In this document: piece after piece, positions 38,692 to 45,483 of the stretch
Layout of the letters: each line of letters begins with the position of its first letter
Position numbering within the stretch: the stretch's first letter is position 1
DNA from: an uncultured Alphaproteobacteria bacterium
GTDB taxonomy: Bacteria > Pseudomonadota > Alphaproteobacteria > Rs-D84
Reading direction: 5' to 3'
Length of the DNA: 64,000 nt
Assembly: GCA_944393245.1 (NCBI GenBank)
Contig: CALXZM010000001.1
Location: 124,001-188,000 of the forward strand
Program-made: the position numbers and the translations under genes
Notes under the pieces: model-generated
The model's database searches: none
What the model was told of the DNA's origin: nothing
What the model saw: only the letters and a program-made list of their open reading frames with translations

Positions 38692-38831
38692 TGTGATTGC
38701 AGTTGTGATCACAAATGCAGACTTTGCATCGCAAGGGCTTTAAAAGGCCCCGAATCCACATCCCTATGGACTGATTCGTCAATCCATTACGCATAGTTTG
38801 CACCCCCATGGAAACATGGGGATTTTTTTTA
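38692..38831 (+). ncRNA. Orphan structured small RNA with terminator
   Basis: About 135 nt after a promoter-like sequence, ending in CCCCATG/CATGGGG (38804-38821) and eight T's. Inside: TGCAGACT (from about 38717) can close with AGTTTGCA (about 38795-38802); TTGC/GCAA, GGGC/GCCC and ATGGA-C-TGA/TCA-A-TCCAT with a TTCG tetraloop form nested hairpins. No plus-strand gene follows (the next gene converges), so this is a free RNA, not a leader. It does not match 6S, SRP, tmRNA or RNase P RNA as I know them. Confidence 0.55.
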
Positions 38832-40604
38832 TGATTTTTGTTTTAACAGGCTTTGTACGGCCAATGGAAAATCACTGCTGTGGGCCAGGTATGAACCGCT
38901 GACCAGTAAATCTGCCCCGGCTGCCCAACATTTTTGCGCGGTTTCTGCATTTATTCCGCCGTCAACAGATATTAAATATTTTAACCCATATTTTTTACGC
39001 GTTGCCGCCAATATTGATATTTTATGCAGGCATTCTGTATCAAATGGTTGGCCCGCCGCGCCAGGGGAAACCGCCATAATCATAACTTCATCTATTTCAC
39101 GTAAAATCGGTTTTAGAATTTCAACAGATGAATCAGGGTTTAATGCAACGCCTGCACGACGCCCGGCACCACGTATTATTCGCAGTGCGGCACGTACACC
39201 AGATGTGTTTGTTGAAACTATAATTGTGTTCGCGCCGGCACGAATTGCGTCCGCAGCCCAGACGTCCGGGCTTTCCGTCATCAGGTGTACATGCAAATGC
39301 GCCGTTGTGTGACCACGTATATATTTTAATTCAGGAATTCCGCCACGTATATTTTCAACATACAGGCCATCCATTATATCAACATGAATCATTGATATGC
39401 CACCAGACCGGAACATTGAATACGTAGATGCACTTTTCATGTCAAAGCACAGTGTGCTGGGCAGAATTGGAATGAACTGATTTTGTTGCTTTTTATGTGG
39501 TCTGAATGAAATGGTTAATTTATCATAAATGTTTTTTATGCGTTCACGTCGCGCATCCCATGCACGGCGGTGGGAATCTTCGGCGTGCCAGATGTATGCG
39601 GATAATGCCTGGACTGATGCGGTGCGGGTGTTGTTTGTCACGGGAATCCCGAAAACGTTTTCCATAAAATCTGAAATTCCGTTCATTTCTGAACCACCGC
39701 CGGAAATCAGTATTCTGTTTGGCATTTTGTGTTTAAATGGTGCGGAACATGCGTCCTTGATTTTTGCAAATAAATCAATCATGTTTGGCAATATTATTCC
39801 ATTTACATCCGAACGTGAAAAATCGTATGCTGTGTCCGCAGGGGTAAATCTGTCCATGTCGTTGGGCATTAAACTGGCCACATTACGCTTTATGCGTTCT
39901 GCATCGTCAAAATTTATGTTTAATTTTTCAGATATGTCGCGGGTTATGTCCGTGCCACCAAATGGAATTTTTTGAAAAAATATTGGGCCGTTGTCCAACC
40001 ATATTGAAACAGTTGTAAATTGGGCACCAAAATCAATGTACATGTCCGCACTTTTTTTGTCATGTGATGTGGCGTTTTGCAAAAAATGTGGGTCATAGAA
40101 AGAGTATGGTTGAATATACGCAGCATGCAATGTGGATATTATTTCGTCCATTGCATCACCTGAATAAAATATTGCACCAAAAATTGCCGTCAGACCAAAA
40201 TCTGTATATCCAATTGGTGAATACAGTTTCGGAATGTTTGGTGTTTCATAACGCAATGGGATTATATGCATTGGATAATATCCGTCTGGTGGCGTTATTT
40301 GTGAAATCATTGCGCCTATGTCCGATTGCGTTATTTTATGTTCGCTGCGCCAGTTTTTTGTTTTTGGGCTGATTTTAAATGATGCGGGACCAAAATTGCC
40401 GGTTACGTATGCGTTGTCAAAATGGTCGCCCAGTTGACGTTCTAGTTCATTTATTACCTGTTTCAGGGCGTATACAGTATCAAAACTGTCCATTGAATAC
40501 ATTGCGGATTTTACCAAACGCGCATTGCGAACACGGTGGGCTATGCCGCGTACACCGCTGGTACCAATGTCCAAGCATAAAAAAGATGAATCAGATAAGT
40601 TCAT
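38829..40604 (-). CDS. ftsA-rpe: FtsA-ribulose-phosphate 3-epimerase fusion protein
   Basis: 591 residues in one uninterrupted frame. Residues 1 to about 350 are an actin-fold FtsA: phosphate-1 DIGTSG (12-17), IDFGAQFTTVSIW (about 189), PFGGTDITRDI and adenosine motif ISGGGSEMNG (about 297). A basic amphipathic linker (about 348-372) resembles the FtsA membrane-targeting helix. Residues about 374-591 are a complete Rpe TIM barrel with the metal and catalytic residues: IHVDIMDG (about 404-411), HVHLM (437-441), SPGAAGQPF and VDGGI (about 547). FtsA tethers FtsZ to the membrane; Rpe interconverts ribulose- and xylulose-5-phosphate. It directly follows ftsQ. Confidence 0.9.
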   Translation of the reverse strand: MNLSDSSFLCLDIGTSGVRGIAHRVRNARLVKSAMYSMDSFDTVYALKQVINELERQLGDHFDNAYVTGNFGPASFKISPKTKNWRSEHKITQSDIGAMISQITPPDGYYPMHIIPLRYETPNIPKLYSPIGYTDFGLTAIFGAIFYSGDAMDEIISTLHAAYIQPYSFYDPHFLQNATSHDKKSADMYIDFGAQFTTVSIWLDNGPIFFQKIPFGGTDITRDISEKLNINFDDAERIKRNVASLMPNDMDRFTPADTAYDFSRSDVNGIILPNMIDLFAKIKDACSAPFKHKMPNRILISGGGSEMNGISDFMENVFGIPVTNNTRTASVQALSAYIWHAEDSHRRAWDARRERIKNIYDKLTISFRPHKKQQNQFIPILPSTLCFDMKSASTYSMFRSGGISMIHVDIMDGLYVENIRGGIPELKYIRGHTTAHLHVHLMTESPDVWAADAIRAGANTIIVSTNTSGVRAALRIIRGAGRRAGVALNPDSSVEILKPILREIDEVMIMAVSPGAAGQPFDTECLHKISILAATRKKYGLKYLISVDGGINAETAQKCWAAGADLLVSGSYLAHSSDFPLAVQSLLKQKS

Positions 40605-40606
40605 TT

Positions 40607-41287
40607 TTATTTTACCAATATACGCGCACTGTCACGCATATCTATGATATCCAGGTCTTTGGATAAAATGTTATGATTTTTATCCAAAACCATCAGGCTG
40701 GCAATTGCTGCATCTGGATTTTGTTCGGGTAACATTATGGTTATGCCGTCAATCGTATGCAGATTCCAACGTCTGTTTTCTATGAATTCCAGATAATCTA
40801 TGTCCGATACCATGTTTTGCGCGGTGGTTGTTATTCCAGATATATCATTCGGAACAGGGCCACGAAATACAACTGTGTTCGGGGTGCGGGTATCAGATGG
40901 TTTGTTTACTATTGTTCCATCGGCCGATAATGGAAAATACTGGTTCCCGTCAGTCCATTGGGCAACAGCCTGATGTAATTGAACATGAATTGCCAGATTC
41001 CCATTGGCCAGGCGTCGTGTCGCGGCGTTTTTTATGCCAGGGGTTGCCGCAATGCGGGCGTTTATCGCGTTTAATGTTTCACCAAATGCGCGTGTGCCGG
41101 GGGCAACCGCCGCCGCCGTGACAACGGGGGTTAAATCCTTGTTCGGGATGTCGGCCGTAATGGACATTGTTCGTACGTATGACAATGTGCCGTGGCCAGT
41201 ACATATCATCACGATGCGGGTCGCAAAGTAAATGGCCAACAATATTGCCACAATAAAATACAGCCAAAACCATATTGAACGTTTCAT
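40607..41287 (-). CDS. ftsQ: Cell division protein FtsQ
   Basis: 226 residues. One N-terminal membrane helix (about 6-24) and a periplasmic part. A POTRA-like start (about 40-65) is followed by GIKNAATRRLANGNLAIHVQLHQAVAQW (about 84-111), where other FtsQ proteins have the R-x-P-x-A-x-W segment, then FPLSADGTIV. FtsQ recruits FtsBL to the divisome. The stop lies two bases before the ftsA-rpe start, preserving the ancestral ftsQ-ftsA order, although mur genes and ftsZ are not adjacent. Confidence 0.8.
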   Translation of the reverse strand: MKRSIWFWLYFIVAILLAIYFATRIVMICTGHGTLSYVRTMSITADIPNKDLTPVVTAAAVAPGTRAFGETLNAINARIAATPGIKNAATRRLANGNLAIHVQLHQAVAQWTDGNQYFPLSADGTIVNKPSDTRTPNTVVFRGPVPNDISGITTTAQNMVSDIDYLEFIENRRWNLHTIDGITIMLPEQNPDAAIASLMVLDKNHNILSKDLDIIDMRDSARILVK

Positions 41288-43506: not shown

Positions 43507-44760
43507 ATGTTTTCAAGATTAGAAAGAAAAATTGCATTCAGGTATTTAGCAGCCAAACGGCGGGGATTTGGTTCCGTTGTTTCATGGGTGTCTTTGATTG
43601 GTATAACGTTGGGTGTGGCGACGCTGATTGTTGTTATGTCTGTTATGGGGGGATTTCATGATACGCTGTTGTCGCGTATCGTTGGAATGAATGGGCATGT
43701 CGTTGTTTATCACCAGGATGGCGCAATAAAGGATTATGATTTCTTGATCGATAAAATGCGTCAGAACAAGATTGTGGCCGCCAATGCAAATGGAATTGTA
43801 CCAATTGCCGAAGGCCAGGTTATGGCCACTGCAAACGGAAATAATACCGGGGCGATGATACGTGGTATCAGAATGTCTGATTTGGCGGCCAAGGCCGCAA
43901 ATGGCACCAGGATTTATGGCAAACCATTGGATAAAATTCAGGATGGGGAATTGGTTGCTGGGGCGTCATTGACACGCGCGTTGTCGGTTGGCATGGGGGA
44001 CCAGATTTCGTTGGTTTCTGCGAATAATGCAACACCGACACCGTTTGGGTCTATGCCACGGATTATGTCGTATCCAGTTATGTCATCTTTCTTTATGGGA
44101 ATGTATGAATATGATTCAGGATATATTTTTATGCCATTGGAAACCGCACAAAAATATTTGAATATTCCAGATGCTGTGACGCACATAGATTTATTTCTGC
44201 GTGACCCAGAAGACACCGCCCAGGTGCGTGACGCGTTGGCCCGATTGTTGCCTGATGGGTTTGTTGTGCGCGATTGGCGCGATTTAAATCGGGGATTTGT
44301 CGGGGCGTTACAGGTTGAATCAAATGTTATGTTTTTAATATTAATGCTGATAATAATTGTTGCGGCGTTTAATATTGTGTCCAGTTTGGTTATGTTGGTC
44401 AAAGACAAGTCCAAGGATATTGCCGTGCTGCGTACGTTTGGCGTTTCACGCCGGTCAATGATGAAAATATTTATTCTGTCTGGGACCAGTTTGGGGGTAT
44501 TGGGTGCTTTGTTCGGTACGATACTGGGGGTGGTTATTGCGATTTATATCGAACCAATACGCCAGTTTGTTCAATGGGCAACAGGACGTGATTTGTTTCC
44601 GGCTGAATTATATTATTTGTCCGAATTGCCGTCAAAGTTAGTTGTGGGTGATGTTGTTGGAATTGCATTGATTGCGGTATTGTTGGCGTTTTTGGCGACA
44701 CTGTATCCCGCATGGAAAGCGGCCAGTACCGACCCAGTAGAGGTTCTGCGAAATGAATAA
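43507..44760 (+). CDS. lolC: Lipoprotein-releasing ABC transporter permease LolC/LolE
   Basis: 417 residues with the MacB/LolC layout: helix 1 (about 23-46), a large periplasmic domain, then three helices (about 275-300, 325-350, 378-400). IAFRYLAAKRRGFGSVVSWVSLIGI (about 9-33) and a C-terminal AxxPxxxLRxE-like end (ASTDPVEVLRNE) are typical. It extracts lipoproteins from the inner membrane for transfer to LolA. A single LolC/E gene implies a homodimer, as in other alphaproteobacteria (LolF-like). Confidence 0.93.
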   Translation: MFSRLERKIAFRYLAAKRRGFGSVVSWVSLIGITLGVATLIVVMSVMGGFHDTLLSRIVGMNGHVVVYHQDGAIKDYDFLIDKMRQNKIVAANANGIVPIAEGQVMATANGNNTGAMIRGIRMSDLAAKAANGTRIYGKPLDKIQDGELVAGASLTRALSVGMGDQISLVSANNATPTPFGSMPRIMSYPVMSSFFMGMYEYDSGYIFMPLETAQKYLNIPDAVTHIDLFLRDPEDTAQVRDALARLLPDGFVVRDWRDLNRGFVGALQVESNVMFLILMLIIIVAAFNIVSSLVMLVKDKSKDIAVLRTFGVSRRSMMKIFILSGTSLGVLGALFGTILGVVIAIYIEPIRQFVQWATGRDLFPAELYYLSELPSKLVVGDVVGIALIAVLLAFLATLYPAWKAASTDPVEVLRNE

Positions 44761-44772
44761 AGGGCGATAAAA

Positions 44773-45483
44773 ATGGCGAATATATTAAATTCTTTGTCCA
44801 AGGTTTCACGTGGCGATGTCGTCCTGTCGGTGCGCGATATAAAAAAAACGTTTATGGAGGGCGGACAACCACTGCATATTTTGCGCGGGGGTGGTTTCGA
44901 TTTGCGCAGGGGTGAAATTGTTGCGCTGGTTGGTCCATCGGGCAGTGGTAAATCAACACTGTTACAATGTGTCGGATTGTTGGACAGGCCAACGTCCGGC
45001 AGTATATTGCTGGCCGGGGTGCCTGTTCAGAAAATGGATGACGAAATGCGCACCATGATGCGGCGTCAAAAGATAGGCTTTGTTTATCAGCGTCATAATT
45101 TATTGGCTGATTTTACTGCGTTGGAAAATGTTGTTTTGCCAATGTTGGCAAATGGATTGGATGAACGCAGTGCAAATGCGCGTGCCATGAAATTGCTGCG
45201 TGCCGCCAGTGTCGCACATCGTGCGGGGCATTTGCCGGGGGAAATGTCAGGGGGGGAACAACAACGCGCAGCCGTTGCACGTGCGTTGGCAAATAATCCT
45301 GAAATTTTATTGGCAGATGAACCCACGGGCAGTTTGGATCCTGCGCATGCGGCATCTGTGTTTGATTTATTATTGGATTTGGTGCGAAAACAAAAAATGG
45401 CCATGTTGTTTGTAACGCATGATATGAATTTGGCCGCACGTGCCGACAGAACAATAACTATTACAAATGGTATAGTGGAATAA
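44773..45483 (+). CDS. lolD: Lipoprotein-releasing ABC transporter ATPase LolD
   Basis: 236 residues. Walker A VGPSGSGKSTLL (about 54-65), Q-loop FVYQRHNLL (about 98-106), signature MSGGEQQRAAVARAL (about 157-171), Walker B ILLADEPTGSLD (about 177-188) and H-loop VTHD. ATP hydrolysis drives LolC/E. Twelve bases after lolC, same operon; many lipoproteins in this window are its likely clients. Confidence 0.95.
   Translation: MANILNSLSKVSRGDVVLSVRDIKKTFMEGGQPLHILRGGGFDLRRGEIVALVGPSGSGKSTLLQCVGLLDRPTSGSILLAGVPVQKMDDEMRTMMRRQKIGFVYQRHNLLADFTALENVVLPMLANGLDERSANARAMKLLRAASVAHRAGHLPGEMSGGEQQRAAVARALANNPEILLADEPTGSLDPAHAASVFDLLLDLVRKQKMAMLFVTHDMNLAARADRTITITNGIVE

Follow-up and report, generated by a model that had tools for sequence, protein, structure and literature searches.

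A diverged FtsA homologue joined to ribulose-phosphate 3-epimerase in a family of gut Alphaproteobacteria in which no FtsZ was found

FtsZ builds the division ring in almost every other bacterium, and FtsA is usually described as the membrane anchor of FtsZ. Division without FtsZ has been described for Chlamydia and the Planctomycetes, which keep their peptidoglycan (PG) synthases and MreB but have generally lost ftsA along with ftsZ (PMC12283558, PMC10591338). In the FtsZ-less PVC groups, the loss of ftsA is the rule, with few exceptions (PMC12283558), and in the obligate intracellular bacteria that have been surveyed, ftsZ and ftsA are either both present or both absent (PMC10591338). The bacterial family considered here shares the absence of FtsZ and the retention of PG synthases and MreB with these groups, yet it keeps FtsA.

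The lineage itself has been described by Begmatov et al. 2025, who placed Enterousia in the order Rs-D84 and portrayed its members as reduced, partner-dependent and probably rod-shaped, with RodA, MreB and MrdA and, in Enterousia/Rs-D84, a non-oxidative pentose-phosphate pathway lacking transaldolase (PMC12306168). The genomes analyzed here belong to the same lineage and agree with that description in their reduced size, their MreB, RodA and MrdA, and their non-oxidative pentose-phosphate pathway. The published account is silent on the loss of FtsZ, on a fusion of FtsA with ribulose-phosphate 3-epimerase (Rpe), and on the loss of Mur ligases (PMC12306168). A search for an FtsA-Rpe fusion, or for a family-wide occurrence of FtsA without FtsZ, found no paper in the library consulted. 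What appears to be new is a whole family that possesses FtsA but no FtsZ, and in which the FtsA homologue is joined to an ordinary Rpe.

The fusion gene was encountered in a 64,000-nucleotide stretch of DNA (the window) from an uncultured member of the order. It reads from position 40604 to position 38829, with 591 codons plus a stop codon and no internal stop. An earlier note on this DNA had its coordinates, length and single frame correct, the minus strand being absent from that account. Only two bases separate the ftsQ stop codon from the ATG of the fusion, and this direct precedence of ftsQ (PF03799) bears out the claim that the FtsA half keeps its ancestral place. The gene, its parts and its immediate surroundings are as follows.

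40607..41287, minus strand: ftsQ (PF03799, 38.9 bits, cut-off 21), directly upstream of the fusion
38829..40604, minus strand: fusion gene ftsA-rpe, a single open frame of 591 aa
39582..40604, minus strand: FtsA half, residues 1-341; an actin fold that includes the IC subdomain specific to FtsA (PF14450; Z 32.5 to 7q6f)
39471..39581, minus strand: basic linker, residues 342-378; a helix end (343-365), then a basic, low-confidence stretch
38832..39470, minus strand: Rpe half, residues 379-591; a complete (beta/alpha)8 barrel (PF00834 and NF004076 above cut-off; match to 2fli)
38804..38821, no strand: stem-loop just downstream of the fusion stop, with a T run on the plus strand

The stem-loop is terminator-like for plus-strand transcripts and is a minor feature; such sites are no commoner in this region than in shuffled sequence. 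Elsewhere in the window (43507-45483), a permease of the FtsX/MacB type is followed by an ABC ATPase, an ordinary pair resembling LolC/LolD.

Pfam recognizes FtsA (PF14450) at residues 189-324 with 63.7 bits (cut-off 31.8) and Ribul_P_3_epim (PF00834) at residues 392-573 with 149 bits (cut-off 21.1), while sequence profiles match the protein to FtsA (3e-20), PilM (1e-10), MreB (5e-9) and Rpe (7e-53). An AlphaFold2 model built from 61 sequences has a mean pLDDT of 92.6, with the low-confidence part at the joint (about residues 366-378), and a pTM of 0.62, which gives no fixed arrangement of the domains. The covalent union of FtsA and Rpe proposed in the earlier note is therefore real, both halves being matched by Pfam and by solved structures.

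Its distribution was followed in 201 genomes of the order Rs-D84, representing 23 genera, with 183 genomes in the window’s family and 18 outside of it. The same fusion, which the earlier note had suggested seeking in related genomes, was matched by profile in 175 of the 183 family genomes (Candidatus Enterousia and relatives) and in all 13 of the family’s genera; most of the eight remaining genomes are incomplete. One family genome that is 95% complete (G101) has no fusion match at all, reflecting either an assembly gap or a real loss. No fusion was seen in the other families of the order within this sample; in a class-wide draw of 385 genomes, the matches listed outside the family cover the Rpe part only. 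Candidatus Enterousia species and many gut MAGs are among the named records that carry the fusion.

The gene forms one frame of about 580-604 aa in 23 of 23 aligned genus sequences and in 79 of 80 named records, the sole exception being interrupted by a contig end, and one frame of 550-600 aa in those of the more diverged genera that were examined. Apparently split or truncated fusions in four genomes (G178, G102, G147 and G161) were rejected as contig ends, and G183 and G184, each matched in two pieces, proved to have single frames of 555-569 aa. A supposed second fusion in G037, with rpe inside an 874-aa frame, was dismissed as a chance open frame; its Arg/His-rich N-terminus has no family match and is unlike the neighboring gene of its relatives.

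Nearly all of the named fusion records are metagenome assemblies, and one might thus imagine that an assembly or binning artefact had fused two genes. The same junction, however, recurs across 13 genera, in genomes that come from numerous studies and hosts, and dN lies well under dS on either side of it. Relative to L110, dN and dS are 0.073 and 1.09 for the FtsA half and 0.062 and 1.44 for the Rpe half, indicative of purifying selection on both, while the corresponding values for the linker (0.37 and 2.8) display a less marked contrast than in either half. The probability of such an artefact is vanishingly small, and the independent assemblies of 13 genera exclude the frameshift or assembly error near the junction against which the earlier note had cautioned. 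The fusion is a fixed trait of the family rather than an idiosyncrasy, and it is probably derived from a neighboring ftsA/rpe pair.

The absence of FtsZ from this family of tiny-genome gut bacteria is the larger surprise, and it was missed in the earlier note. The tubulin/FtsZ domain (PF00091) was detected in none of the 183 family genomes, as opposed to 17 of the 18 genomes from the rest of the order, and a family genome consisting of a single contig and 99% complete (G043) likewise had no FtsZ match. A diverged FtsZ overlooked by Pfam was considered and rejected: an HMM made specifically for the order from 15 of its FtsZs scored E. coli FtsZ at 2.5e-123 but, in a sensitive-mode search of the reading frames of the window genome (rebuilt, 926 kb), found nothing better than an E value of 0.57. 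Since FtsZ is lacking from all 183 genomes, canonical FtsZ-tethering by the FtsA half is impossible, and the tethering assumed in the earlier note gives way to a context of FtsZ-less division. The only genome of the order outside the family without FtsZ is G027, the single genome of family f5. It possesses an extremely diverged, unfused FtsA beside ftsQ (L053, G027:C23:1-9000), and FtsZ, Mur ligases, rpe and UvrB were all without a match in it; an independent or earlier loss of FtsZ is possible there.

The FtsA half nonetheless resembles described FtsAs (PF14450/TIGR01174; 7q6f of V. maritimus, 4a2a of T. maritima and 7q6d of E. coli). Residues 6-341 of the model align with 7q6f at Z 32.5 (335 aligned residues, 3.0 A); the corresponding Z is 25.4 with PilM and about 21 with MreB. 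Shared features include the actin fold with its IC subdomain, the place after ftsQ and, in large part, the nucleotide-pocket residues; the FtsA part may also share a basic, amphipathic-type segment at its end. The fused protein differs in residing in a cell without FtsZ, in its shortened regions, in the loss of the phosphate-2 signature, in a score of 77.4 bits against the NCBIfam FtsA equivalog TIGR01174 (below the cut-off of 175.85), and in having its putative membrane segment internal and an enzyme appended. The nucleotide-binding motifs are given below.

40545..40580, minus strand: phosphate-1 loop, residues 9-20 (LCLDIGTSGVRG); D12 in 105/109 and G14 in 109/109 aligned relatives
40008..40040, minus strand: phosphate-2 loop, residues 189-199 (YIDFGAQFTTV); D-x-G-x-x-x-T, with the Gly-rich signature lost
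39687..39707, minus strand: adenosine motif, residues 300-306 (ISGGGSE); G302 in 109/109, G303 in 104/109 and G304 in 100/109

Relative to E. coli FtsA, the interval from phosphate-1 to phosphate-2 is 17 residues shorter, and that from phosphate-2 to the adenosine motif 15 residues shorter. The latter region includes subdomain IIB, the binding place of the FtsZ tail in T. maritima FtsA (structure 4a2a). The phosphate motifs and GGG adenosine motif had been called intact; this holds for phosphate-1 and for the adenosine GGG, but in phosphate-2 the GGGT of DxGGGT is gone, only D191, G193 and T197 being kept. GGGT has likewise been relaxed in most FtsAs of the FtsZ-bearing sister families, and its loss alone is therefore no mark of lost function. 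The FtsA half is a diverged FtsA homologue, a Z-less variant. In genus g19 (L216, L217, L218 and L220), the phosphate-1 loop looks degraded, and in three of these four the residues ahead of Rpe (e.g., FWRRFIRKIVLSLTNKK) form a more hydrophobic, more helix-like stretch, as a membrane helix would; nucleotide use by FtsA may have been lost first in this genus.

The Rpe half is the more conventional partner. Residues 377-590 of the model align with 2fli, the Rpe of S. pyogenes, with Z 32.5, 214 aligned residues, 1.5 A and 37% identity, and the half shares with Rpe (PF00834/TIGR01163) the same complete barrel and all metal and catalytic residues. It differs in being covalently joined to FtsA, in probably being membrane-bound, and in scoring 157.6 bits against TIGR01163, below the cut-off of 212.6. 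Its active-site residues are as follows.

39378..39386, minus strand: metal/catalytic residues H407 and D409; 105/106 relatives covering the site
39285..39287, minus strand: metal ligand H440; 105/106 relatives covering the site
38961..38963, minus strand: metal ligand/acid-base D548; 104/104 relatives covering the site

The structural match and the near-invariance of these four residues in more than 100 relatives support the earlier description of a complete barrel with its His/Asp metal motifs. The same note had advised looking for a separate rpe and a second ftsA; neither was found in the window genome, where the fused copy is the only rpe. Given its near-invariant catalytic residues and its status as that genome’s only rpe, the Rpe half is probably active as an epimerase, as judged from sequence. 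Transketolase and RpiB are present in the window genome, while transaldolase, RpiA and Zwf were looked for there and not found. At least seven Enterousia genomes (G137, G140, G145, G169, G115, G171 and G127) possess a second, free-standing epimerase of about 217-229 aa (L243-L249), distinct from the fused one and perhaps of other sugar specificity. In these genomes, the fused copy still keeps every catalytic residue.

It could be argued that the main function of the Rpe half is to multimerise, clustering FtsA and replacing FtsZ as a bundling scaffold, considering that the fusion and the loss of FtsZ are distributed alike inside the family and that the closest solved Rpe entries contain several chains (2fli 12, 1tqj 6, 7b1w 12), although chains per crystal entry are no measure of oligomer state. 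The f5 genome, however, also lacks FtsZ while its FtsA is unfused, which means that FtsZ loss does not need the fusion, and a scaffold role alone would not require the catalytic residues to be kept. We regard this role as very doubtful. It is also quite improbable that the fusion replaces the Z-ring, with Rpe oligomers multimerising FtsA filaments at the membrane into a ring or patch; were this true, the division machine would contain actin but no FtsZ and would include a pentose-phosphate enzyme as a structural component.

Between the two halves, the AlphaFold2 model places a helix at residues 343-365, with pLDDT below 50 at residues 370-375. This helix and the basic stretch lie where the earlier note had expected the FtsA membrane-helix region, namely inside the protein. 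The last 22 residues ahead of Rpe carry a mean net charge of +7.7 (80 relatives), and the amphipathicity is only weakly significant: in the family profile, the best window of 14 residues has a hydrophobic moment with p=0.03, uncorrected for several windows. The linker is weakly conserved, with 46-54% identity between close relatives, and sister FtsAs of the order terminate in canonical amphipathic helices (e.g., KVKKWIDDNF). A relic of the FtsA membrane-targeting helix is the probable identity of the linker, and, from its composition, the fusion is likely to bind the membrane via the linker helix and basic stretch.

A flexible, basic and poorly conserved linker is also a possible protease site, and the polypeptide might be cut, or translation re-initiated, in the cell to yield separate FtsA and Rpe, leaving the fusion without consequence. 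No recognition motif is visible in the linker, however, and a start codon (ATG, GTG or TTG) occurs within 25 codons before Rpe in just 30 of 79 scored relatives, at differing positions, with none in frame in the window’s own linker. Separation of the halves is accordingly viewed as highly unlikely.

The origin of the fusion can be read from gene order in the sister families. In f2, f3 and f6, a separate rpe lies immediately behind ftsA; the two genes share one base in f3 and in one f6 genome, and overlap by four bases in the other f6 genome. In f4, an ABC-transporter gene is located between them (L047 2789-4558 and other f4 loci). In genomes with neighboring ftsA and rpe, ftsZ is situated elsewhere. 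Because the separate genes are direct neighbors in three sister families, the parsimonious, and probable, route to the fusion is that the family’s ancestor lost the stop codon of ftsA. In the Rpe gene tree, which has long branches, the fused halves form one group without a clear nearest sister, and descent from the local rpe therefore rests on gene order. The f5 genome, on a long branch, is left unplaced by the FtsA and RodA trees; with fusion and FtsZ loss both fixed in the family, FtsZ may have been lost before or after the genes were joined.

Metabolic enzymes are known to tune division elsewhere, as exemplified by KidO and GdhZ of Caulobacter, UgtP of Bacillus and OpgH of E. coli. With these precedents, and with the intact fusion retained in 13 genera, one may ask if the protein is a metabolic sensor, in which substrate binding or the oligomer state of Rpe alters FtsA activity, thereby linking flux through the pentose-phosphate pathway to division. 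Ancestral genes that were adjacent, touching or overlapping nevertheless explain the fusion without selection for coupling; the low-confidence, basic and poorly conserved linker does not suggest an allosteric joint, nor does the pTM value speak for fixed domains. A sensor of this kind seems distinctly unlikely. Coupling of carbon flux to division, which the earlier note had raised, is possible, and nothing found favors it over passive fusion of adjacent genes.

The window’s family is an FtsZ-less divider that has kept its PG synthases. The window genome retains FtsQ, FtsW, RodA, FtsI, PBP2, FtsK, MreB and MreC, together with a class A PBP (identified from its sequence) and an FtsN-like SPOR protein with one membrane helix (C7 1830-2645). 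The FtsW/RodA family was found in all 24 genus genomes searched, mostly in two copies. MinC and MinE were not found in the window genome, and its sole MinD-like match is a ParA-type ATPase. The picture is different for the cytoplasmic PG-precursor enzymes: all of those tested, namely MurA, MurB, MurC-F, Ddl, Alr and MurI, were not found in the window genome (G000), and the Mur-ligase family PF08245 is absent from 24 of 24 genus genomes. Yet FtsW, RodA, FtsI, PBP2 and the class A PBP are kept, along with three further proteins of the window genome:

C1 21139-22227: MraY
C1 18850-19896: MurG
C5 81236-82696: MurJ

UDP-MurNAc-pentapeptide may be taken up from a partner, or unrelated precursor enzymes may be used.

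The FtsA half could be doing something other than division, which is conceivable in light of its lost phosphate-2 signature, shortened regions, sub-cut-off TIGR01174 score and, in four relatives, replaced D12. By analogy with what has been proposed for Chlamydia, MreB, also present, could carry division instead; the FtsA half would then be a membrane anchor for Rpe or a structural relic, with MreB and the elongasome dividing the cell. Such a role agrees with the loss of FtsZ, the presence of MreB, RodA and PBP2, the faster evolution of the FtsA half (76% identity to L111, compared to 90% for the Rpe half), and the degraded nucleotide motifs of some relatives. Against it stand the strong purifying selection on the FtsA half (dN/dS about 0.07-0.14), the near-invariance of the nucleotide-site residues D12, G14, D191, G193 and G302, and the retention of FtsQ, FtsW, FtsI, FtsK and the FtsN-like protein, the usual partners of FtsA; furthermore, a mere anchor has no need of a full actin fold. 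On balance, a non-division role for the FtsA half appears unlikely.

With somewhat better than even confidence, we favor a bifunctional protein that combines a working Rpe with a membrane-attached FtsA organizing a Z-less divisome. This protein would have become fixed in the family’s common ancestor after the ftsA stop codon was lost before a touching or overlapping rpe, the fusion being retained since both halves still worked. The fusion, its conservation, the absence of FtsZ, the gene content, the folds and the catalytic residues are established computationally, whereas epimerase activity, attachment to the membrane and a scaffold role of FtsA in FtsZ-free division are inferred from them. 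The C-terminal half would be the cell’s working ribulose-5-phosphate 3-epimerase, serving the non-oxidative pentose-phosphate pathway with transketolase and RpiB. The diverged, membrane-attached FtsA half would act as an actin-like organizer of FtsQ, FtsK, FtsW, FtsI and the FtsN-like protein without FtsZ, while the basic amphipathic stretch would keep the joint at the membrane and let Rpe hang into the cytoplasm. In published work on the FtsAs of E. coli and V. maritimus, the protein assembled with the FtsN tail into curved double filaments on lipid that prefer the curvature, and take the orientation, of MreB (PMC7613929), making an FtsZ-free FtsA scaffold physically plausible.

This gut alphaproteobacterial family thus constitutes a natural experiment on whether the actin FtsA can organize septation alone. 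The FtsA-Rpe fusion is, moreover, compact and amenable to expression and direct testing, including of whether its enzyme part matters for division.
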